A stretch of DNA of 48,717 bases, from contig JAFXAW010000001.1 in the NCBI GenBank assembly GCA_017522015.1, positions 1 through 48,717 on the forward strand, written 5' to 3'. The position numbers and the translations under genes are program-made. Each line of letters opens with the position of its first letter. Position 1 is the stretch's first letter. This document shows, one piece after another, positions 983 through 24,930 of the stretch. This DNA is from Oscillospiraceae bacterium (lineage in GTDB: Bacteria; Bacillota; Clostridia; Oscillospirales; Oscillospiraceae). Under the pieces are notes generated by a model. It worked only from the letters and a program-made list of their open reading frames with translations. It was not told the DNA's origin and searched no databases.

Positions 983-3900
983 ATGAAAAAGAGAATCATA
1001 AGTATGCTGCTCACGGTGCTGATGGTGGTTTCACTTTTCCCCAGCGGCGCACTGGCAGCGGAAAACGCAGCAGGTGACGGCAGTGCCGAAAACCCGTATC
1101 AGATCGGTGACATCGTAATCAACGACGGTTCGGCCGAGCCCGAAGGATATACGGCAGCAAATTCGCGCTGGACCAGAACAAGCGATGTTCCTGCATCCGA
1201 AAGCGTGGCATGTACGCTTGAAGAGCATGATCATGCCGCTGCGGGATGCGACGATGCGTGTGCTTTGGAGGAACATAAGCACACGGTTGAGAATGGTTGC
1301 ATCACTGTAACGCCGGCATACACCGTATGGACGCTGGAGCAGCATGATGAGCCCGCGATGTTCGCAGCCAACGACGCAGTTGCTCCGATTGCCGAAGACA
1401 CAAGCCTTCCGATTCACTTTTTCCTGGCTTCTCCCGGCAATATTACAAACCCCAACGGATCCTACGTAAACTATTACGGCCCCGGGTATTCGGACTGGAC
1501 GGGCGCCTATACCGTGCAGGGCATACAGGATTCTGATGCGTGGAGTCAGATGTACACCCAGACCGGCATCCGCAATGTCTACGATGAATCCACCGTCACG
1601 CAGTACATTGCTTCCTGGCCCAACGGTTACGATGCGGCTTCCTTTAAGGATTTCGGCAGCGTCACGATTGGTCGTCAGGTATACACCTCTGATAAGTACG
1701 AGATCAAGTGGGTTTCCATCATGTGCCGCGACAATGACTCGAACAACAGCGGGCTTCGCTGCAATCAGCGCAATTTTGACGGACCGCACATCCACGTTGA
1801 CGGCCTGCTGGTCGAGAAGGTCCAGCCCGGCGATATGGAGGTTTACAAGTCCATCCCCTCTGCGCTGACCAAGGATTTGAGATTCAACTTCACGCTGCAG
1901 AAGATGCTGCAGAACAGCCTGACCTCTCCTCCCGCGAGCGCGGACGCCATCGACGGCAGTTTTGCTCCCATGACGCTGACGGCTACAATCCCCGCAGGGC
2001 AGACCGAGGCGCAGATTATCGGCGGTTCGGAAATTTCTTTCGGTTATTATAAACTGACCGAAAATGCCTACCCGGGCTGGCTGACTTCCGGCATCGCGCT
2101 GACCGGCAGCAACGGAAGAACCGAAACCGTCAGCACAAACACGCTTTACATCTGCATCGCGCCCAACGGCACGGTTCAGTACAGCACCTCGGTTTCCGGA
2201 CCGTATTCCACGATGAGCCACGTGTCCGTTATTAACACATACGACCCGGCTTATGATCTCAGCACGAGCGTGGGCGCCGTGATTCTCAGCGGCGTGAAGC
2301 ATTGGGATGACAACAATAACGAGGCCGGACATCGCCCCGGCTCCATCACAGTCATTCTGAAGGCGGACGGACAGGAAATTCAGAGAACTTCTGCCACCGC
2401 ACCGAATTGGAGCTATTCGTTTGACGTTTCAACCGTGCCCAATCCCACGGAAGTTGAATTTACCGTCGAGGAACTCCCCGTGGCGGGATATACGCTGACC
2501 GAGAAGCATGACCCGGATGTTATTTTTGTCAGCCCCACAGATGCCGGTGGCTGGACAAGAACCACCACTTGCAGCCAGCTGGAGTTTGTAAACGAAACAG
2601 CAAGCGACGGCGAAGTAATTCGCCAGACGGTTGTTCTTGCAAAGACAACCGATCAGATTGCCGTCTTTTGGACGCCCAATCCTTTGGCACAGCACGAGCG
2701 TGACATCGTGATTGACTCTACGAAGGGCCTCAGCGGTCTCGGAAATCCCAAAAGTTACCTCTTCTTCAGCGGTGAAGGTGAATCCGTTGAGTACGGCATT
2801 ACAGCTACAAGCACAACCGTTACGTTTGAGGCGACAAACAACTGGTCCATGTTCTGGGTGGGCACGTTCCATCGACAGTCTTCCGAAACCGCAGACTGCT
2901 CTTTGACCAACGCACTGTCTACGATTACAATTCAGGCCCAGAAAGTATGGGACGATGACAACAACCGCGACGGCATCCGTCCCGATTCCGTAACGGTTGA
3001 GCTGCTCGCAAACGGCACTTTGGTTGAAACCGCAGTTCTGAGCAACGCCACCTCCTGGACCAAGCAGTGGCACAACATGCCCGAATACGCAAACGGCAAG
3101 AAGATCACCTACACGATCCAGGAAATCTCCGTTCCCGCCGGATACACGGCTGCGTACTCTTCAGACGAAACGGGCAGATTGTATGTAACCAACACGCACG
3201 CTCCCGAGACGATTGAAGTTACCGCCGTCAAGCATTGGGAAGATGACAACAACCGTGACGGCATCCGCCCCGATTCTGTTGTTCTGACACTTTATGCCGA
3301 CGGCATCCCCACCGGCAAAACCGTTACCGTCACGAAAGCCGGCAACTGGACAGCAAGCATCAGCGGCCTGGAAAAGTATGTTAACGAAAACGGCGTTGTC
3401 CGTGAAATTGTATACACGCTGGTAGAAAGAAATGCACCCGCAGGTTATCAGTCCACCACAAACGGAACATCGGTTACAAACACGCACACCATTGAAACCA
3501 TCGATGTTCCCGTGAACAAAGTGTGGAATGACGCAAACGACCAGGACGGCAAGAGACCCGACGAAATTATCGTTGTGCTTTATGCCGACGGTGTTGAAGT
3601 GGCCAGAATGCCCATCACGGCAACGGGCAACTGGGCAGGCATTTTTGAGGACATGCCCAAGTACAAGGCCGGCGCGGTGGGACAGGCCATCCGCTACACC
3701 GTAGATGAAGCCGAAGTGCCTGAAGGCTACACCAAGTCCGTTAACGGCACCACCATCACAAACAGCCATACTCCCGAAACCGATACCTTTACGGTTATCA
3801 AGAAATGGCATGACTTTGACAATAACGACGGCAAGCGTCCCTATGCAGTTGAAATCGAGCTCTACAAAAACGGTCAGCCCACCGGCAGAGTCGTTACTTT

Positions 3901-6900
3901 GACTGCAGAGAATCAGTGGACTGCAAGCTGGGCTGATGTGCCGCTCTATGAAGAAGGCGTAAGAATCAGCTACACCACCGTAGAGGTTGCAGCATATATC
4001 ACAGCGGAAGATCTGCGCAGCGGCAACCCGACAAACGTTTCCGATACGGGATACACAGTCCGCCATGATGACTATGATCGCGTAAATCATATCTCTACTG
4101 TCACAAACAGCTACACGCCCGAACTGGTAACGCTGGATATTCAGAAGACCTGGAATGACGGCAACAACCAGGATGGCATTCAGCCCGATTCCGTTACTTT
4201 CTATCTGTGGATGACGACGGATGCTGCCAAGCTTCACCTTGCCCCCAGCGAGGCAAACGGCTGGACGCAGGTAAAAGGTGTCGACGGCGCGCAGATGAGC
4301 GCAATCCTCGCGCGGCATACTGACGGTTCGTGGATCGATGCCGAGTTCACAGGTCTGCCCAAGTATAAGAGCGGCAATGTGATCTACTACGCTGTGACAG
4401 AAAAACCCATTGCCGGTTACACGCCCAGCTACGAACTGGATCCCGCAGTCGGCATGGTTCATGTTACCAACACGCACGAAGTGGAGAAGACAGACGTTAC
4501 TGTAACCAAGGTCTGGGACGACGCGAACAACCAGGACGGCATCAGACCCACGTCCGTAACGCTGTATCTCTACGGAAGAGACAAGCAGACGCCCATTGAT
4601 GAACAGACCATTAGCGCCGATGCCAACGGCAACTGGAGCTACACATGGACCGGTCTGGACAAGAACTACGCCGGCCAGGAGATTATCTACACCATAAGAG
4701 AAAAAGCGGTTGAGGGATATACGCCCAGCTACGTGGAAACGAGCAACCGCACGGCGATCACAAATCATTATACCCCCGAAACCACATCCGTTGACTTTGC
4801 GAAGATTTGGGATGACGCCGGCAACCAGGATGGCATCAGACCCAGAAGCATCACAATCACGCTGTACGCAAACGGCGAAGCGGTTGACACCAAGACTGTA
4901 ACCGCTGCTCAGAACTGGAGCGGCACCTTTGAGAATCTGCCCAAGTACGACGCCGGCAATGTGATTGTCTACACGGTGGATGAGACAGACGTTCCCGCGG
5001 GTTACACAAAATCCGTCAGCGGCAACGTGATCACCAACTCCCACGCGACAGAAAAAACCAGCGTTGAAGCCCGTAAGGTTTGGGTGGACAACAACAATCA
5101 GGACGGCCTCCGTCCCCAGCAGATCACGCTGGTCCTTTACGCGAACAACGTTGAGGTGGATCGCAAGACCGTTTCCGCTGCCGAGAACTGGGCTTACACC
5201 TGGAATAATCTCGACAAATTCGCCGGCGGCGCTGAGATTGTCTACACCGTTGACGAGGCAGGTGTTCCGGACGGTTACACAAAGACTGTTGACGGAAACG
5301 TGATCACAAACACGCACGTTCCCGCAACAACAGACATTACGGTTACAAAAATCTGGAACGACGACGGCAACCGGGATAACAAGCGCCCCAGAACCATCGT
5401 AATCAGATTGTTCGCTGACGGCGCAAGTGAGCCCGTGCGCGAGGAAACCGTGTTCGGTTTTGAAACCACCTGGACGCACACATTTACAGATCTGCCCGTA
5501 AAGAATAACGGCGCGGCCATTACTTACACCGTTGATGAGGCAGAGGTGCCCGCAGGCTATACCAAAACCGTTAACGGCACTACCATCACAAACACATACA
5601 CACCCGAAACAACCTCTGTTTCCTTTAACAAGGTATGGAGGGACAGCAACAACCAGGACGGCAAGAGGCCGGAGAATGTAACGGTTATTCTCTATGCCGA
5701 CGGCATTGAGAAACAGCGTATGACGGTTGGCGAAACCGAGAACTGGGAGGGCACATTTGATAATTTGCCCAAATACCAGACCGGCAAAGTGGGGCAGCTC
5801 ATCACGTACACGGTAGATGAAGCTGAAGTTCCCGCCGGTTACACAAAGCTCGTTTCCGGCACCACAATTACCAACGCATATACACCCGAGACCGTTGCAG
5901 TCTCTGTATCCAAGGCATGGGATGACGCGAACGATCAGGACGGCATCAGACCGGAGAGTGTTACCGTTCGTCTCAGCAATGGCGAGTCCGTCAGGCTGGA
6001 TGCTTCCAACGGTTGGAAACACACTTTCACAAATCTGCCCCGTTACGAAAACGGCGTTGAAATTCAGTATACGATTACGGAGGACGCTGTAACAGGTTAC
6101 ACCGCGCAGATTACCGGCGATGCTGCAACGGGCTATCACGTCACAAACAAGCACATTCCCGAAACCACCACTGTCTCCGTCGAAAAGGTATGGAACGACA
6201 ATGACAACGTGGACGACACCCGTCCCGCATCCATTACGCTCCACATCAGGAAAAACGGCGAGCATATGGGTGAGAGCTATAAAAAGGTCGTCAAGCCCGA
6301 TGCCAACGGCGACTGGACCGCAAGCTGGACCAATCTGCCCAAATATGAAGAGGGCAAGCTGATTAACTACACCGTTGAAGAAGAGCCTGTTGGAAACGGC
6401 TATTATTCCGGCGGTGAATGGGTCAATGGCGTTTTCCGGCTCACCAACACCCGCGCGCAGGATAAGGTTGCACTCACCGTGCAGAAGCGCTGGGATGACG
6501 CAAACAATCAGGACAACATCCGGCCTTATGGCGTTGTGGTTCAGCTCTATGCCGACGGTACGGCATACGGAAATCCCGTAACCCTCACGGCTGCAAACAA
6601 CTGGCATTATGTTTGGGTGGATCTGCCCGAGAATGCCGCGGGAGCCGAAGGCGAAGCCATTGCCTATACGGTTGAGGAGCTGCACTACGTTGACGGCAAT
6701 AACAACGAGATCAAGCTGACAGATCTTGCCTATACGCAGCCCGACGGTGTTGACGGCATCGTGGACGCCATGACCGGAACTGTTGTGATCACCAACAAGC
6801 ACATTCCGGACACAATCAACATTCCCGTAACCAAGGTTTGGGCAGACGGCAACAACCAGGACGGTCTGCGCGTTCCCGTTAAAGTTGCGCTCTACAGAAA

Positions 6901-9900
6901 CGGTGAGAACACCGGCAAGACTGTAACGCTCAGCGAAGCGAACGGCTGGACTGCCGAGTTTAAGGATCTGCCCGTACACCACGGCATTGGCGTAGACAAC
7001 ATCTACACGGTTGAAGAAGTGGAAACACCGGCAGCTTACACCGTTGAGATCACCGGTGATGCTGCAGGCTTCACGGTCACAAACACGCATACACCCGAAG
7101 TTGTGGACATCCCCTTCGAGAAGGTATGGAATGATGCAAACAACCAGGATGGCCTGAGACCGCAGAGCATTGAAATCACGCTGTACGCGGACGGCAAGGC
7201 TGTGCAGACGAAGACTGTCTCGGCCGCGGAGAACTGGAGCGGCACATTCGAGAACCTGCCCAAGTTCGATGCAGGAACCGCAATCGGGTATACGGTGGAT
7301 GAAGCTACCGTGCCGGCGGGTTATGAAAAAACCGTCGCAGGAAGCACCATCACCAACACCCATGTCCCCGAAACGATTTCTGTCACAACAGAAAAAGTGT
7401 GGGAGGACAACGGCAACCAGGACGGCAAACGCCCCGCAACTGTCACCGTATATCTGCTGGCAAACGGCGTACCCACCGGAAGCGCTGCCACGCTGAGCGA
7501 GACAAATGGCTGGAAGCACAGCTGGGATGGTCTTGACAAGTTCGATGGCGGCGCCGAGATCGCCTATTCTGTCAAGGAAGCTGTTGTCGGCAACGGATAC
7601 CACACAACGATTGACGGTTTCACGGTTACCAACACATACGAACCCGAAAAGACTTCCGTCAACGTATGGAAGCAGTGGGACGATGCAAACAACCAGGATG
7701 GTTACCGTCCGGCAAAGATCACCGTAAAGCTGTATGCAAACGGCCAGGAAAAGGCTTCCGCAGAGCTTAGCGCGCAGAATGGCTGGCATCACTCCTTCTC
7801 GGGACTGGACAAGTATGCAGGCGGTGTGCTTATCGATTACACAATCGATGAAGTCCGCGTGGATCAGTACACAACAAAGATCACCGGTAATGCCGCAACC
7901 GGATATACCATTACCAACACGCATGAAGCAGAGAAAACAGAAGTCACTGCCGAAAAAGCATGGGATGACGCAGAGAATCAGGACGGCAAGAGACCCACGT
8001 CCGTAACGCTGTACCTCTACGGAAGAGACAAGCAGACTCCCCTCAAGGAACAGACCATTAGCGCCGATGCCAGCGGCAACTGGAGCTACACATGGACCGG
8101 TCTGGACAAGAACTACGCCGGTCAGGAGATTATCTACACCGTAAGAGAAAAAGCGGTTGACGGATATACGCCCAGCTACGTGGAAACGAGTGACCACACC
8201 TCCATTACAAACCACCACACCCCCGAAACAACATCTGTTGACTTCGTAAAGGTATGGGATGACGCCGGCAACCAGGATGGCCTGCGGCCCAGGAGCGTTA
8301 CAGTCACCCTGTACGCAAACGGCGAAGCGGTTGACACCAAGACTGTAACCGCTGCTCAGAACTGGAGCGGCACCTTTGAGAATCTGCCCAAGTACAAAGA
8401 AGGCGCCCTTATTGCGTACACCGTGGACGAAACCGAAGTGCCCGCAGGTTACACCAAATCCGTCAGCGGCAATGTGATTACCAACTCCCACATCCCGATT
8501 ACCGCAAACCTCAATGTTGAAAAGGCATGGGATGATTTCAACAACAACGACGGCAAGCGTCCTTACGCTGTTGAAATCACGCTTCTGAAGAACGGCGACC
8601 CCACAAGTTTCGTTCTGATTCTTCAGGAGAACAACAACTGGCACGGTGTATGGGAAAATATGCCCCGTTACGAAAACGGTAACCTGATAAGCTATTCTGT
8701 TCTGGAAACCGCTTACTATCAGACTGCCGGTTCCGCACGTACGCCGGGAGCCCCTGAAGGTTACTCCGTGATGCATCGTTATGACTCCACGGATTACAAG
8801 AACCCTGTTGCCACGGTAACAAACTCGTATACGCCCGTAACCACCGGCCTTAACGTGCAGAAAACCTGGGATGACGATCACAACCGTGAAGGAAAGCGGC
8901 CTTCCGAAATCACCGTAACGCTGTATCGCAAAATCGGCGATAACGGCACATGGGAAATGATGAAGGGCAGCAACGGCAAACCCATCTCCGCTGTGCTGAA
9001 TGCAGAGAATGAGTGGGATGCAGACTTCACCGGATTGCCCGCATACAAGGATGGGCAGAAGATCATCTACAACGTTGTGGAAGACGATGTTGCCGGATAT
9101 AACCGCGGCGATGAATATGGCGAGCCCACAGATCCCAAGTACGTTCTCAATCCGAACACCAATGTTGTTACGATCACAAACACACGCAAGATCAACCGTG
9201 ATGTTTCTGTTGAAGTGACGAAGGTTTGGGACGACATGAACGATCAGGATGGCATCCGTCCTTACGCTGTTGTTGTGGAGCTCTACGCCAACGGCATTCC
9301 CACCGGTGTCACAAAGGTCATCAGCGCTGAGACCGCCGGCGGAAAAGTTGCCTTTACCGGACTGTACGACTATTACATCGGAAAGCAGGTCATCTATACC
9401 GTTGAAGAAGTCGGGTATTACATGACTGCCGAAGCCTATAACAACGGTCTGGGCGAGATGACAAAGGGTGTGCCCGTCGGATACAAAGCCTCCGTAAGCA
9501 CAGTGCATTCCGACGGCAGCAATGTCGTGGATGTAAAGCTCACAAACCGCCACGAACCCTCTAAGATTTCCATCCCCGTATACAAGACCTGGGATGATGC
9601 AAACGATCAGGACCGTATGCGTCCCGGCACGGTAGAAGTAACGCTCTGCGCCAACGGCGTAAAGACAGCTCAGGTGCTGAAATTGAGCGCAGACACCAAC
9701 TGGAGCGGCGTGTTTGCCAATGTGGACGAATACGCACAGGGCGAAAAGATTGCCTACACGATCGTGGAAACCGCCATCACCGGCTACAACGTGGATGAAG
9801 ATGGTGTTGCGCAGGATCTGATTGTTCCGGTCAAGGATGGCATGATTGACATTGTGAACGTTCACGAAGTCATGAAGACCACGGTAACCGTGAACAAGCA

Positions 9901-11572
9901 GTGGGATGACGCAAACGATCAGGACGGCAAGAGACCCGACTCCATCTCGGTGCATCTGCTGGCAGACGGCGTGCACATGGGTGAATCTTATAAGAAGGTT
10001 ATCACCCCCGACGCGGACGGGAACTGGACCTGCACATGGGATGGACTGGATATGAATCACAACGGCCAGCCCATCAGATACACAGTTTACGAGGAGCCTG
10101 TAGAGTTTGAAGCTCCTGCGGATGGAATTGATCCTCTGTCTGCAGAAGGCTATGAACCGTATTACGAGCGAATCTCTGAGACCGAGATTGAGATCACAAA
10201 CGTTTATACACCGGAGATCACAAGCGTCACCGTCAGGAAGGCTTGGGCCGACGATGACAACCGGGATGGCATCCGCCCCGAAAAGATCACGGTGGAGCTT
10301 GTTGCGGTAAACGATGTAACCGGTCAGCCCGTTGTGCTCGGTGATGAGGTTGAACTGAAAGTTGAGCTTACCGAGGACAGCGACTGGACTTACACCTGGT
10401 CTGCACTGCCCAAGTACGAAAACCACGGTCAGCTGATCGACTACTCCGTCAAGGAAGTGGAAGTTGGCGAGGGCTATGACTGTGAGGTCAGCGCAGAGGA
10501 CAACGTATTCACACTCACCAACTCGCACGAAAGCGAAGTCACAGGCATTGTCGTATCCAAGATTTGGGAAGACGAGGACAACAACGACGGCAAACGTCCG
10601 GACGGCATTATCGTTCAGCTCTTCGCCGACGGTGCCGAAGTGGAGGGCGGCCGCGCTGTTCTCACCGAAGAGAGCGACTGGACTTATAAGTTCGAGCACA
10701 GCGATGAGATGCCCTTGTATGTATACAATCAGGGCGAACTGATCAAGTATCATGTCAAGGAAGTCGGTCATGTTGTCAACGGCGTGGAAATCGGCGGTAT
10801 GCCCGGCGGTTATGAAGCGGTCATTACCGACAGCGGTTATGAAATCACCGTAACGAACACGCGTGCATCCGAGAAGATCAGCCTTGCAGTCAGCAAGCTG
10901 TGGGACGATGCGGATAACAACGACGGCATGAGACCCGAATCCGTAAAGCTCACACTGGTTAAAAACGGTGACGATGTGGAAACCGTTGTGCTGAGTCAGG
11001 AGAACGAGTGGAAGCACATCTGGACCGGCCTTTACAAGTATGAAGGCGGCGTCGAAGTTGAATACACCGTTCGTGAAGACGCGGTTGAAGGCTACACGGC
11101 TGAGTATGATTCCATCATGTCCAATGACGGAACGCATATCGACGCAACCGTTACAAACAGCCACGAAGTGCTTACGCAGGAAATCACCATAACAAAGAAG
11201 TGGGTGGATAATAACAACGCGCAGGGCCACCGCCCGGATCTCGTTACAATCCAGCTCTATAAAAATGGTGAGGCTTACGGCGACGCAATTGAAGTGACTG
11301 CAGCCGATGGCTGGACGCATTCCATGGATGTTCCCGTATACGAAAACGGAGAAAAGATTGTCTGGACGGTTGAAGAACTGAATGTCCCCTTCAAATACAT
11401 GGTTTCTTATGACCAGACAACGCTCACCGTTACCAACACGCTCAGTGTCGGCGGTGTCCCCATCACCGGAGACAGCAGCGATCTTCTTGGATTGCTGGGG
11501 CTCTTCTTCGCAAGCGTAGTGGGTATCCTGTTCTGCTGCATTCTTAAGAAAAAGCGCAAATGCGAGCAGTGA
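983..11572 (+). CDS. giant LPXTG-like anchored surface protein with 29 CnaB-type modules
   Basis: A 3,529-residue predicted cell-wall adhesin or stalk. A Sec signal peptide spans residues 1-26 (KKR start, hydrophobic core, ALAA cleavage region). Residues 77-106 hold two C-x-L-E-E-H-x-H-x(4-5)-C units that could bind metal. A unique head domain with a SpaA-like stretch follows to about residue 430. The rest is CnaB-type modules of about 85-120 residues opening with K-x-W-x-D-x-x-N-x-D-G-x-R-P, ending Y-T-V-x-E ... T-N-x-H. K, E and N are the triad expected for intramolecular isopeptide bonds. The C-terminus has VPITGD near 3492, a hydrophobic helix and KKKRK, a sortase signal. No sortase gene is in the window. 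It is a monocistron with its own promoter and terminator. The ligand is unknown. Confidence 0.93.
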   Translation: MKKRIISMLLTVLMVVSLFPSGALAAENAAGDGSAENPYQIGDIVINDGSAEPEGYTAANSRWTRTSDVPASESVACTLEEHDHAAAGCDDACALEEHKHTVENGCITVTPAYTVWTLEQHDEPAMFAANDAVAPIAEDTSLPIHFFLASPGNITNPNGSYVNYYGPGYSDWTGAYTVQGIQDSDAWSQMYTQTGIRNVYDESTVTQYIASWPNGYDAASFKDFGSVTIGRQVYTSDKYEIKWVSIMCRDNDSNNSGLRCNQRNFDGPHIHVDGLLVEKVQPGDMEVYKSIPSALTKDLRFNFTLQKMLQNSLTSPPASADAIDGSFAPMTLTATIPAGQTEAQIIGGSEISFGYYKLTENAYPGWLTSGIALTGSNGRTETVSTNTLYICIAPNGTVQYSTSVSGPYSTMSHVSVINTYDPAYDLSTSVGAVILSGVKHWDDNNNEAGHRPGSITVILKADGQEIQRTSATAPNWSYSFDVSTVPNPTEVEFTVEELPVAGYTLTEKHDPDVIFVSPTDAGGWTRTTTCSQLEFVNETASDGEVIRQTVVLAKTTDQIAVFWTPNPLAQHERDIVIDSTKGLSGLGNPKSYLFFSGEGESVEYGITATSTTVTFEATNNWSMFWVGTFHRQSSETADCSLTNALSTITIQAQKVWDDDNNRDGIRPDSVTVELLANGTLVETAVLSNATSWTKQWHNMPEYANGKKITYTIQEISVPAGYTAAYSSDETGRLYVTNTHAPETIEVTAVKHWEDDNNRDGIRPDSVVLTLYADGIPTGKTVTVTKAGNWTASISGLEKYVNENGVVREIVYTLVERNAPAGYQSTTNGTSVTNTHTIETIDVPVNKVWNDANDQDGKRPDEIIVVLYADGVEVARMPITATGNWAGIFEDMPKYKAGAVGQAIRYTVDEAEVPEGYTKSVNGTTITNSHTPETDTFTVIKKWHDFDNNDGKRPYAVEIELYKNGQPTGRVVTLTAENQWTASWADVPLYEEGVRISYTTVEVAAYITAEDLRSGNPTNVSDTGYTVRHDDYDRVNHISTVTNSYTPELVTLDIQKTWNDGNNQDGIQPDSVTFYLWMTTDAAKLHLAPSEANGWTQVKGVDGAQMSAILARHTDGSWIDAEFTGLPKYKSGNVIYYAVTEKPIAGYTPSYELDPAVGMVHVTNTHEVEKTDVTVTKVWDDANNQDGIRPTSVTLYLYGRDKQTPIDEQTISADANGNWSYTWTGLDKNYAGQEIIYTIREKAVEGYTPSYVETSNRTAITNHYTPETTSVDFAKIWDDAGNQDGIRPRSITITLYANGEAVDTKTVTAAQNWSGTFENLPKYDAGNVIVYTVDETDVPAGYTKSVSGNVITNSHATEKTSVEARKVWVDNNNQDGLRPQQITLVLYANNVEVDRKTVSAAENWAYTWNNLDKFAGGAEIVYTVDEAGVPDGYTKTVDGNVITNTHVPATTDITVTKIWNDDGNRDNKRPRTIVIRLFADGASEPVREETVFGFETTWTHTFTDLPVKNNGAAITYTVDEAEVPAGYTKTVNGTTITNTYTPETTSVSFNKVWRDSNNQDGKRPENVTVILYADGIEKQRMTVGETENWEGTFDNLPKYQTGKVGQLITYTVDEAEVPAGYTKLVSGTTITNAYTPETVAVSVSKAWDDANDQDGIRPESVTVRLSNGESVRLDASNGWKHTFTNLPRYENGVEIQYTITEDAVTGYTAQITGDAATGYHVTNKHIPETTTVSVEKVWNDNDNVDDTRPASITLHIRKNGEHMGESYKKVVKPDANGDWTASWTNLPKYEEGKLINYTVEEEPVGNGYYSGGEWVNGVFRLTNTRAQDKVALTVQKRWDDANNQDNIRPYGVVVQLYADGTAYGNPVTLTAANNWHYVWVDLPENAAGAEGEAIAYTVEELHYVDGNNNEIKLTDLAYTQPDGVDGIVDAMTGTVVITNKHIPDTINIPVTKVWADGNNQDGLRVPVKVALYRNGENTGKTVTLSEANGWTAEFKDLPVHHGIGVDNIYTVEEVETPAAYTVEITGDAAGFTVTNTHTPEVVDIPFEKVWNDANNQDGLRPQSIEITLYADGKAVQTKTVSAAENWSGTFENLPKFDAGTAIGYTVDEATVPAGYEKTVAGSTITNTHVPETISVTTEKVWEDNGNQDGKRPATVTVYLLANGVPTGSAATLSETNGWKHSWDGLDKFDGGAEIAYSVKEAVVGNGYHTTIDGFTVTNTYEPEKTSVNVWKQWDDANNQDGYRPAKITVKLYANGQEKASAELSAQNGWHHSFSGLDKYAGGVLIDYTIDEVRVDQYTTKITGNAATGYTITNTHEAEKTEVTAEKAWDDAENQDGKRPTSVTLYLYGRDKQTPLKEQTISADASGNWSYTWTGLDKNYAGQEIIYTVREKAVDGYTPSYVETSDHTSITNHHTPETTSVDFVKVWDDAGNQDGLRPRSVTVTLYANGEAVDTKTVTAAQNWSGTFENLPKYKEGALIAYTVDETEVPAGYTKSVSGNVITNSHIPITANLNVEKAWDDFNNNDGKRPYAVEITLLKNGDPTSFVLILQENNNWHGVWENMPRYENGNLISYSVLETAYYQTAGSARTPGAPEGYSVMHRYDSTDYKNPVATVTNSYTPVTTGLNVQKTWDDDHNREGKRPSEITVTLYRKIGDNGTWEMMKGSNGKPISAVLNAENEWDADFTGLPAYKDGQKIIYNVVEDDVAGYNRGDEYGEPTDPKYVLNPNTNVVTITNTRKINRDVSVEVTKVWDDMNDQDGIRPYAVVVELYANGIPTGVTKVISAETAGGKVAFTGLYDYYIGKQVIYTVEEVGYYMTAEAYNNGLGEMTKGVPVGYKASVSTVHSDGSNVVDVKLTNRHEPSKISIPVYKTWDDANDQDRMRPGTVEVTLCANGVKTAQVLKLSADTNWSGVFANVDEYAQGEKIAYTIVETAITGYNVDEDGVAQDLIVPVKDGMIDIVNVHEVMKTTVTVNKQWDDANDQDGKRPDSISVHLLADGVHMGESYKKVITPDADGNWTCTWDGLDMNHNGQPIRYTVYEEPVEFEAPADGIDPLSAEGYEPYYERISETEIEITNVYTPEITSVTVRKAWADDDNRDGIRPEKITVELVAVNDVTGQPVVLGDEVELKVELTEDSDWTYTWSALPKYENHGQLIDYSVKEVEVGEGYDCEVSAEDNVFTLTNSHESEVTGIVVSKIWEDEDNNDGKRPDGIIVQLFADGAEVEGGRAVLTEESDWTYKFEHSDEMPLYVYNQGELIKYHVKEVGHVVNGVEIGGMPGGYEAVITDSGYEITVTNTRASEKISLAVSKLWDDADNNDGMRPESVKLTLVKNGDDVETVVLSQENEWKHIWTGLYKYEGGVEVEYTVREDAVEGYTAEYDSIMSNDGTHIDATVTNSHEVLTQEITITKKWVDNNNAQGHRPDLVTIQLYKNGEAYGDAIEVTAADGWTHSMDVPVYENGEKIVWTVEELNVPFKYMVSYDQTTLTVTNTLSVGGVPITGDSSDLLGLLGLFFASVVGILFCCILKKKRKCEQ
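4544..5044 (+). repeat. recent segmental duplication, copy A (modules 7-8)
   Basis: This 501-bp block aligns without gaps to 7991-8491 (constant offset 3447), at roughly 90% identity by eye. It includes an identical stretch of about 80 bp in the second module. It covers most of one CnaB module and all of the next. Confidence 0.85.
7991..8491 (+). repeat. recent segmental duplication, copy B (modules 19-20)
   Basis: Partner of 4544-5044. The same two-module order is kept, which suggests duplication or gene conversion of a two-module unit inside the array. Confidence 0.85.
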
Positions 11573-11611
11573 GCGCCATGACTCGTAACAACTAAACCCC
11601 AACATTAAAAG

Positions 11612-24546: not shown

Positions 24547-24620
24547 ACCGGGATTGTGTAATGGTAGCACGCCGGACTCTGACTCCGTCTGTGAGGGTTC
24601 GAATCCTTCTCCCGGTGCCA
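24547..24620 (+). tRNA. tRNA-Gln (anticodon CTG)
   Basis: 74 nt with encoded CCA. Acceptor ACCGGGA/TCCCGGT, D arm GTGT/GCAC, anticodon loop CTCTGAC giving CTG, and T arm GAGGG-TTCGAAT-CCTTC. The outermost anticodon-stem pair is a C-T mismatch. It decodes CAG. Confidence 0.94.
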
Positions 24621-24652
24621 AAAATCGACAGGTTTCGACCTGTCGATTTTTT
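24621..24652 (+). terminator. terminator of tRNA-Gln
   Basis: A 13-bp stem (24621-24633 with 24638-24650), TTCG tetraloop, T tail. It starts directly after CCA. Confidence 0.92.
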
Positions 24653-24654
24653 AT

Positions 24655-24823
24655 CCATTGCGAAAGCAATGGTATATCATCACGCGCAAGCGTGCATCTC
24701 ATCACCGAAGGTGTATATCATCAGCCGCAGGCTGCATTTCTTTTCGCAATGATGATATACAAAACTTCGTTTTGATGATATGCAATTCCTGCGGAATTGA
24801 TAATATACACGGCTTTCGCCGTG
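24655..24823. repeat. head-to-head array of seven mini-hairpins
   Basis: Hairpins: 24655-24672 (CCATTGC, loop GAAA), 24681-24694 (CACGC, GCAA), 24703-24713 (CACC, GAA), 24722-24734 (CAGCC, GCA), 24761-24773 (AAAAC, TTC), 24783-24799 (CAATTCC, TGC), 24808-24823 (CACGGC, TTTC). The first four are spaced by 8-nt TATATCAT-like units, the last three by the reverse complement GATGATATA-like units. Loops also switch to their reverse complements. No protein frame is credible here. Confidence 0.88.
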
Positions 24824-24888
24824 ATTAATGTGAGAGTTCGAATTCATACGCAAAACTTCCGAAAATATCTTTTTCGTAGCCCATAGAC

Positions 24889-24930
24889 AGGAAAACAGCG
24901 ATAGCATCTGCTATCGCTGTTTTCCTTTTC
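24889..24930 (+). terminator. strong terminator-like hairpin without an evident gene
   Basis: A 17-bp perfect stem (24889-24905 with 24910-24926) and a T-rich tail. The stretch 24824-24888 before it contains TGTGAGAGTTCGAATTC, similar to the T arm of tRNA-Gln, and may be a decayed tRNA 3' copy. Confidence 0.75.

Follow-up and report, generated by a model that had tools for sequence, protein, structure and literature searches.

What is the run of small hairpins that lies directly behind a tRNA-Gln gene in the genome of an Oscillospiraceae bacterium, and how did it come to be there? The stretch of DNA that was analysed, hereafter the window, is 48,717 nucleotides long (assembly GCA_017522015.1, contig JAFXAW010000001.1, positions 1 to 48,717). 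The initial annotation described seven perfect hairpins, four followed by three, directly past the tRNA-Gln terminator, and all seven are located at 24655-24823, with the loops that had been claimed for them (GAAA, GCAA, GAA, GCA, TTC, TGC and TTTC, read on the + strand from hairpin 1, hp1, to hairpin 7, hp7). The change of polarity that had been placed near 24740 maps to a switch at 24735-24751. The parts of the locus are as follows.

24547..24620, + strand: tRNA-Gln (CTG), the landing gene, identified with ARAGORN and Rfam; its CCA end is 24618-24620
24620..24652, + strand: intrinsic terminator (A-tract, stem, T-tract), carried with the array
24655..24734, + strand: first half-array, hp1 to hp4 (24655-24672, 24681-24694, 24703-24713 and 24722-24734), with TATATCATCA-type spacers
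24735..24751, + strand: switch, in which TTTCGCAATG (24742-24751) is the reverse complement of the 5' arm and loop of hp1
24752..24823, + strand: second half-array, hp5 to hp7 (24760-24774, 24783-24799 and 24808-24823), with TGATGATATAC-type spacers
24829..24889, + strand: tail module of 61 nt, the core of which (GAGTTCGAATTCATACGCAAAA ... TCTTTTTCGTAGCCCATAGACA) is T-loop-like; interpreted as the point where the element ends downstream
24890..24925, + strand: second intrinsic terminator, taken as host sequence past the insertion from a comparison with sister genome G088 that is suggestive only

The spacers of the two half-arrays are inverses of each other (TATATCATCA / TGATGATATAC), and CATTGCGAAA (24656-24665) forms a perfect 10-nt inverted pair with TTTCGCAATG, in agreement with the earlier observation that a flank of hp1 recurs at the switch and would allow long-range pairing. 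Whilst the hairpins do stand at 24655-24823, these positions are not the limits of the feature, which seems to be larger and to extend from the tRNA CCA (24618-24620) through the end of the tail at 24889.

Further arrays are present in the same genome (G000, 91% complete), where 21 sites match the spacer with no more than one mismatch and none matches the reversed pattern. Fifteen of these 21 sites fall into four clusters (C1, C17, C20 and C39) and six are isolated. The C17 cluster adjoins a tRNA-Ala terminator, downstream of it, and the C39 cluster ends at a tRNA-Gly terminator, this tRNA being named from the matching stretch of G088. The C17 array is immediately followed by a gene encoding a protein of the PF05635 family (23S_rRNA_IVP, E 3.9e-18; hereafter IVP), which is the genome's one match to that profile. 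The window copy has no IVP gene and carries the tail at its end.

Beyond this genome, at least 119 stretches of genome contigs contain the spacer pair (loci L022-L140 are the matches listed, with the window and C17 not in that count), so the array is not the local curiosity that it might have proved to be. The 80 titles among the matches listed are all of Clostridia type, with one exception labelled Bacillales. Arrays with at least three spacers number 132 among the matches listed, made up of 79 head-to-head, 52 one-direction and 1 complex, and many of the listed head-to-head arrays have 3 + 3 spacers across ~150 bp. Within the window's family, 2 of 61 genomes (own included; G088 lies outside this sample) match a relaxed paired-spacer pattern, and a stricter pattern, which misses the window's own genome too, was matched by 0 of 300. 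The array is real and is a member of a widespread element family of Clostridia. That it arose by chance or through a one-off local duplication is refuted by the clusters in its own genome and the 119 or more stretches, as well as by the placement at tRNA genes, the kept hairpins and the arrays at IVP loci described below, and retains practically no probability. Some loci depart from this plan. L102 (3005-3523, 22 copies) and L138 (1669-2413, 9 + 18 copies) contain long one-direction arrays of the same spacers with higher-order repeats and no tRNA detected, and L027 and L140 have a separate interspersed repeat, gcataccgtttttaacggtatcttgcgttattcggcgtgtacgac..., between array blocks.

The position behind a tRNA gene is frequent, as the initial annotation had proposed to check. 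A tRNA is found no more than 160 nt away from 33 of the 79 listed head-to-head arrays (1.16 expected), in every case with the array on its 3' side; for the other 46 there is no tRNA within that distance. One-direction arrays are near a tRNA in 2 of 52 cases among the matches listed. The 43 oriented, listed head-to-head arrays without a detected tRNA frequently begin at a CCA-AA junction (32, vs 1 in the reverse control), and 11 of them show a T-arm motif (vs 2 in the reverse control). A cousin array, L182, is placed behind tmRNA. When similar elements are aligned, right-hand identity usually stops just past hp7, with 40 to 85 nt of extra identity in a few pairs, and left-hand identity stops before hp1 or near the tRNA end. 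As the identity often reaches to near the tRNA end, the terminator often travels along.

Comparisons with two other genomes show turnover at tRNA ends. From the CCA on, the window (behind tRNA-Gln) and the family relative G021 (behind tmRNA) are identical at 141 of 141 nt, a stretch that comprises the terminator, the first half-array and the switch. In the sister genome G088, the tRNA-Gln locus is ~90% identical exactly to the CCA and then continues into its own terminator, with no array. At tRNA-Ala of G088 a different, decayed family member replaces the C17 copy and the IVP region is absent, and at tRNA-Gly there is an unrelated terminator and no array. The junctions compared read CCA/GGAAACC... 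in G088 and tail/GGAAAAC... in the window; the flanks past these two points align with a score of 16 (shuffled maximum 20), giving no clean empty site at tRNA-Gln, and a search in the genus relative of G319 found no clean empty site either. No transposition event was observed; these data fit transposition or recombination, and the unit could also be moved by gene conversion from one tRNA end to another.

The tail module recurs with C17, twice in G088 and in L085, L188, L212 and L213, with the second half only in L131, and was also found in L239, L241, L244, L245, L247 and L249-L251. Among the class genomes, a 22-mer of the tail (up to 3 mismatches) was matched at 12 places in 6 of 118, with 2 control places, and all six of these genomes are IVP-positive (P = 0.0016), PF05635 being present in 42 of the 118. 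Locus L244 (G319, tRNA-Ser) has the layout of the window, an array and then the tail. In L085 the order is tRNA-Ser, an element that scores as Gut-1 RNA, tail, and a TGATGATATAC array with three spacers detected, and here a terminator and hp1 very similar to those of the window are placed after the tail, so a tail is able to stand in place of a tRNA end. No tail (up to 6 mismatches, within 250 nt downstream) was found behind any of the 74 oriented arrays (from the matches listed), and the module would thus often be lost or different. A second element type, made up of a terminator, short inverse repeats lacking hairpins, and a switch with the same sequence as an arm of the terminator, was seen in L205, L210, L211, L213, L217, L219 and L239 (9150-9440), the last of these being a viral contig.

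The 3' ends of tRNA genes are a classic integrase target. The location of the array could be explained if phages or conjugative elements that integrate at tRNA genes had brought it along or left it behind, with the hairpins as integrase arm sites, and both the T-loop-like tail, which resembles a displaced attachment site, and the tandem cassettes with cargo are in keeping with such an origin. At 24829, 15 nt of the tRNA-Gln T-arm are repeated, and this did at first resemble an attR. However, this repeat is part of the constant tail, which is also present at tRNA-Ala, Ser, Arg and Tyr loci, and a tail that stays the same though the tRNA differs is unlike an att duplication. Across 33 of the 34 elements with an adjacent tRNA (one flank was too short), the element's own tRNA 3' end beats all control tRNAs downstream in four only (L034, L055, L137 and the window), and a duplicated tRNA 3' end acting as the attR of a tyrosine recombinase was not found at the window. 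The paired-spacer pattern has 0 matches in viral contigs, the tail has none in 72,556 plasmid records, and neither the tail nor 24618-24892 matches any of 50,697 phage records; the tail matches one viral contig (L239), in a small cousin without hairpins. A phage or conjugative origin is therefore very improbable. In two family relatives (L155 1681-1709 and L164 1685-1717) the 3' end of tRNA-Gln is repeated ~100 nt downstream with no hairpin array, and the duplicated Gln ends in G004 and G005 are a matter apart from the array tail.

The array folds far better than its composition would predict. For 24652-24830, z-scores relative to dinucleotide shuffles are -5.8 for + strand RNA, -7.3 for - strand RNA and -6.0 for + strand DNA, and the observed energy was reached by 0 of 200 shuffles in each case. 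The proposal that stems vary in sequence while pairing is kept holds across the family: among the matches listed, 447 of 570 inter-spacer segments (342 distinct), that is, stretches between like spacers, are perfect hairpins in a scripted count, vs 474 of 114,000 shuffled segments. The pairing of hp1 with the switch is kept as well, with at least 8 contiguous complementary nucleotides in 55 of 74 elements and several hp1 types, and 19 of 74 short of 8 nt; this falls to 3.4% once hp1 and switches of different types are mixed. The 74 comprise 72 of the 79 listed head-to-head arrays (five were unorientable and two are without ATCC) together with the window and C17.

Strong folding on its own would suit a structured non-coding or cis-regulatory RNA, in which read-through past the tRNA terminator yields a hairpin-array RNA bound by IVP, and in which hp1:switch pairing and the self-pairing of hp1 are perhaps the two states of a switch. 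The concentration of wobble pairs on one strand in each half also favours such an RNA. These pairs, counted among the matches listed with segments of more than two mismatches (31 of 570) and the outermost pair left out, stand at 46 on the CATCA strand vs 8 on the other (19:4 and 8:2 in the hp1 and hp7 halves, respectively, 17:2 in arrays that are not head-to-head and 2:0 unoriented). However, the CATCA strands of the two halves are opposite strands of one element, and the hp7 half contributes only 8:2. RNA tetraloops, moreover, are expected to favour GNRA. The CATCA-strand loops of the 447 listed perfect hairpins are GNA in 167 and GNNA in 64, the latter split into 31 GNRA and 33 GNYA with no GNRA preference, and the remainder are 142 + 6 triloops and 68 tetraloops of other types. 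Extraordinarily stable DNA mini-hairpins are described as short G-C stems capped by GNA or GNNA loops in which N is any base (PMC4686876), and these loop types are the commonest on the CATCA strand of the arrays, although the described mini-hairpins are known from oligonucleotides and the array loops are partly of other types. Loop types and wobble strand bias favour, but do not prove, folding as single-stranded DNA or a cruciform, and suggest ssDNA folding at least as much as RNA.

The structured-RNA explanation also draws on Gut-1 (RF01706), catalogued as an sRNA and listed as a non-coding RNA from human gut samples only (PMC2864571). Its three consecutive hairpins with UGAAAU spacers have the layout of one half-array, and cousin elements exceed its gathering cut-off of 50 bits (L209 73.9, L216 61.3 and L085 52.2), whereas the window scores 32.3 bits on the - strand at 24669-24744, which is below threshold. 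Gut-1 covers only half of a cousin element, and the part of its source paper that was consulted mentions no link to tRNA ends, IVP or a head-to-head plan (PMC2864571). Arrays of one spacer group, CGATAT, end close to the IVP start and could be the 5' UTR of IVP. Since the same array type occurs behind more than one gene while sister sites are without it, and given the loops and wobble strands above, we consider a structured RNA an unlikely account of the whole. The initial annotation had offered active copying or a structured RNA; copying is the better fit than plain structured RNA, though it is a process that we infer.

A linked protein family had also been anticipated, and this is IVP, one clade of which mostly has hairpin arrays upstream. 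Among the matches listed, IVP reading frames are present in 12 of 119 paired-spacer loci. Clustering of the ORFs near listed arrays recovered IVP in 10 loci, and in six of these no more than 100 nt separate the frame from an array. As candidate partners, the two largest ORF clusters look spurious, being partly frames inside spacers, and a helix-turn-helix group looks generic. The reverse approach started from 60 IVP reading frames in 59 loci, among the matches listed. A tRNA lies within 1500 nt upstream of 15 of the 60 frames, always co-directional, the distance to the nearest being 151 to 400 nt. On our reading, 31 of the 59 loci contain mini-hairpin arrays whose spacers differ from those above, and six contain inverse short repeats without hairpins (type B); the labels A and B likewise come from our reading. 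The clearest loci (L209, L214, L216 and L221) have four hairpins, a switch repeating the 3' arm of hp1, and three hairpins with inverse spacers. A strict test for the repeated arm succeeded in 12 of 59 loci; none of 295 shuffles passed it, and of 57 downstream stretches one did.

Phylogenetic trees, built with matches of about 55 aa or more, place nearly all array-linked IVPs in one clade of 43 rows (support 100/99), of which 29 have mini-hairpin arrays, 11 come from TGATGATATAC loci, 2 are of type B and 1 has none; another four type-B rows are placed outside this clade. At least four perfect hairpins occur in the 350 nt upstream of 23 of 31 clade IVPs vs 8 of 620 shuffles (L189, with a short upstream region, is omitted), and also in 5 of 30 downstream control stretches and upstream of 5 of 28 other IVPs. 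An exact spacer detector (score at least 5) was positive for 21 of 60 real sequences and 2 of 56 downstream stretches, and for none of 1200 plain shuffles. A mismatch-tolerant detector at the same score (43 of 60 real, 122 of 600 shuffles) is too noisy for use alone. With groups labelled from reading and both detectors, 36 of 47 rows belong to seven spacer groups and 11 to none, and on the IVP tree the seven groups require 6 changes, the fewest possible, two groups having been merged once the first tree was known. Shuffled labels averaged 23.2 changes, and none of 200 shuffles came down to 6. Taken alone, the GTGAAAT-like group requires 2 changes, and the CGATAT group, which spans six host families, is weakly supported (78/0). 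As judged from these trees, spacer type and IVP protein descend jointly.

This joint descent bears on a further alternative, a BIME/REP-like DNA element that serves termination, topology or RNA 3' ends at the close of transcription units, carries IVP as cargo and owes its spread chiefly to homologous recombination between tRNA ends. Inverted palindromic units at transcript 3' ends, with the terminator carried along, are what such an element would show, and profile searches of the window's own genome (91% complete) matched neither a Y1 transposase (PF01797, 0 matches) nor a reverse transcriptase (RVT_1). However, IVP and spacer descend together across several host families, the element has a tail of its own, and most sampled family relatives are without arrays by the pattern used, making this alternative improbable. 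There is a closer likeness to REPIN-RAYT systems in the several short, dispersed inverted palindromic copies with one partner gene per genome. In G000 four spacer clusters stand beside one IVP match, several being without a partner gene, which suggests service in trans. Unlike REPIN-RAYT, the partner is a four-helix bundle, there are seven hairpins and tRNA-like 3' ends are preferred; the IS200/RAYT model was rejected for lack of a Y1 transposase match in the own genome.

Two other systems involve PF05635, which is described as a functionally uncharacterised domain (PMC11270868). The family resembles Avd of diversity-generating retroelements (PMC10053308), and its closest solved relative is 2rld (E 6.5e-34), with 2gsc a weak match (E 0.13; 5 chains each). 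However, RVT_1 has no match in 14 of 16 carrier genomes, own included, some of these genomes being incomplete, and a reverse-transcriptase model (diversity-generating retroelement or group II intron) was rejected with RVT_1 in 2 of 16 carriers and none in G000. Weak PF05635 matches do lie near RT matches at G366:C7 (~4283-5765) and G408:C9 (~47839-49354), as in diversity-generating retroelements. The intervening sequences of 23S rRNA, the function and origin of which are described as unclear, share with the array family a stable-RNA gene site, inverted repeats, a PF05635 gene and a scattered distribution (PMC4990558). In contrast to these, the array sits behind tRNA or tmRNA and not inside rRNA (the window copy is behind tRNA-Gln and the window has no rRNA match), it has hairpin arrays, a switch and a tail, and array-linked IVPs form a clade of their own; the linked PF05635 gene is present at the C17 copy and absent from the window copy.

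Taken together, we favour, with a probability of about 0.62, the reading that the window array is a gene-less, non-autonomous copy (~270 bp, 24621-24889) of an IVP-linked mobile element family of Clostridia. What is observed is the anatomy, the recurrence at tRNA and tmRNA 3' ends, pairing that is maintained both within stems and between hp1 and the switch, and the descent of spacers with IVP. A full element would follow a tRNA-like 3' end and consist of a terminator, hp1, three spacer-hairpin units, the switch, three inverse spacer-hairpin units, cargo and the tail, with a promoter and the IVP gene, and sometimes other genes, in the cargo slot. The window has the 4 + 3 head-to-head plan, a switch matching hp1, the terminator at a tRNA-like 3' end and the tail, the last of these unfound behind most other arrays. 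The array may fold into a branched hairpin tree, most likely as ssDNA exposed at busy tRNA genes, and the IVP protein, as an Avd relative, may recognise the spacers. Pairing of the switch with hp1 would bring the left end to the centre, and the element would then be placed at another tRNA-like 3' end or on the tail of an earlier copy, the latter giving tandem cassettes. Cutting and joining would be done by a host enzyme or by some other enzyme, and the window copy is presumably served in trans by the single IVP gene detected in the genome, behind the C17 array.

More tentatively, and with more doubt than confidence, the family might represent a class of mobile element that lacks a recombinase, transposase or reverse transcriptase of its own, combining a DNA hairpin tree, a cognate Avd-like four-helix-bundle protein, the switch as an internal guide, tRNA-like 3' ends as sites and tandem cassettes built on its own T-loop-like tail. 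If so, the classical 23S rRNA intervening sequences would be cousins in the same class. The joint descent of protein and spacer, the preferred site and the gene-less copies allow a direct test of IVP binding and mobilisation, and the orphan Gut-1 RNA can be placed in context, as one half of an element found at the ends of tRNA genes. In the open-access literature, covered mostly as titles and abstract openings, no description of such elements was found; the half-array of a cousin is known as Gut-1 and the protein as PF05635, and the element family was not found described as a whole.

Two minor observations concern genes. In L113 and L166 (1210-1608) a similar small lipoprotein-like gene follows the array, which suggests shared cargo, with IVP preceding it in L166 and not found in L113. 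In the window itself, a minus-strand frame of 2814 aa at 3161-11605 (no Pfam match at E 0.001) overlaps a plus-strand frame of 3529 aa at 983-11572, both of them very long.
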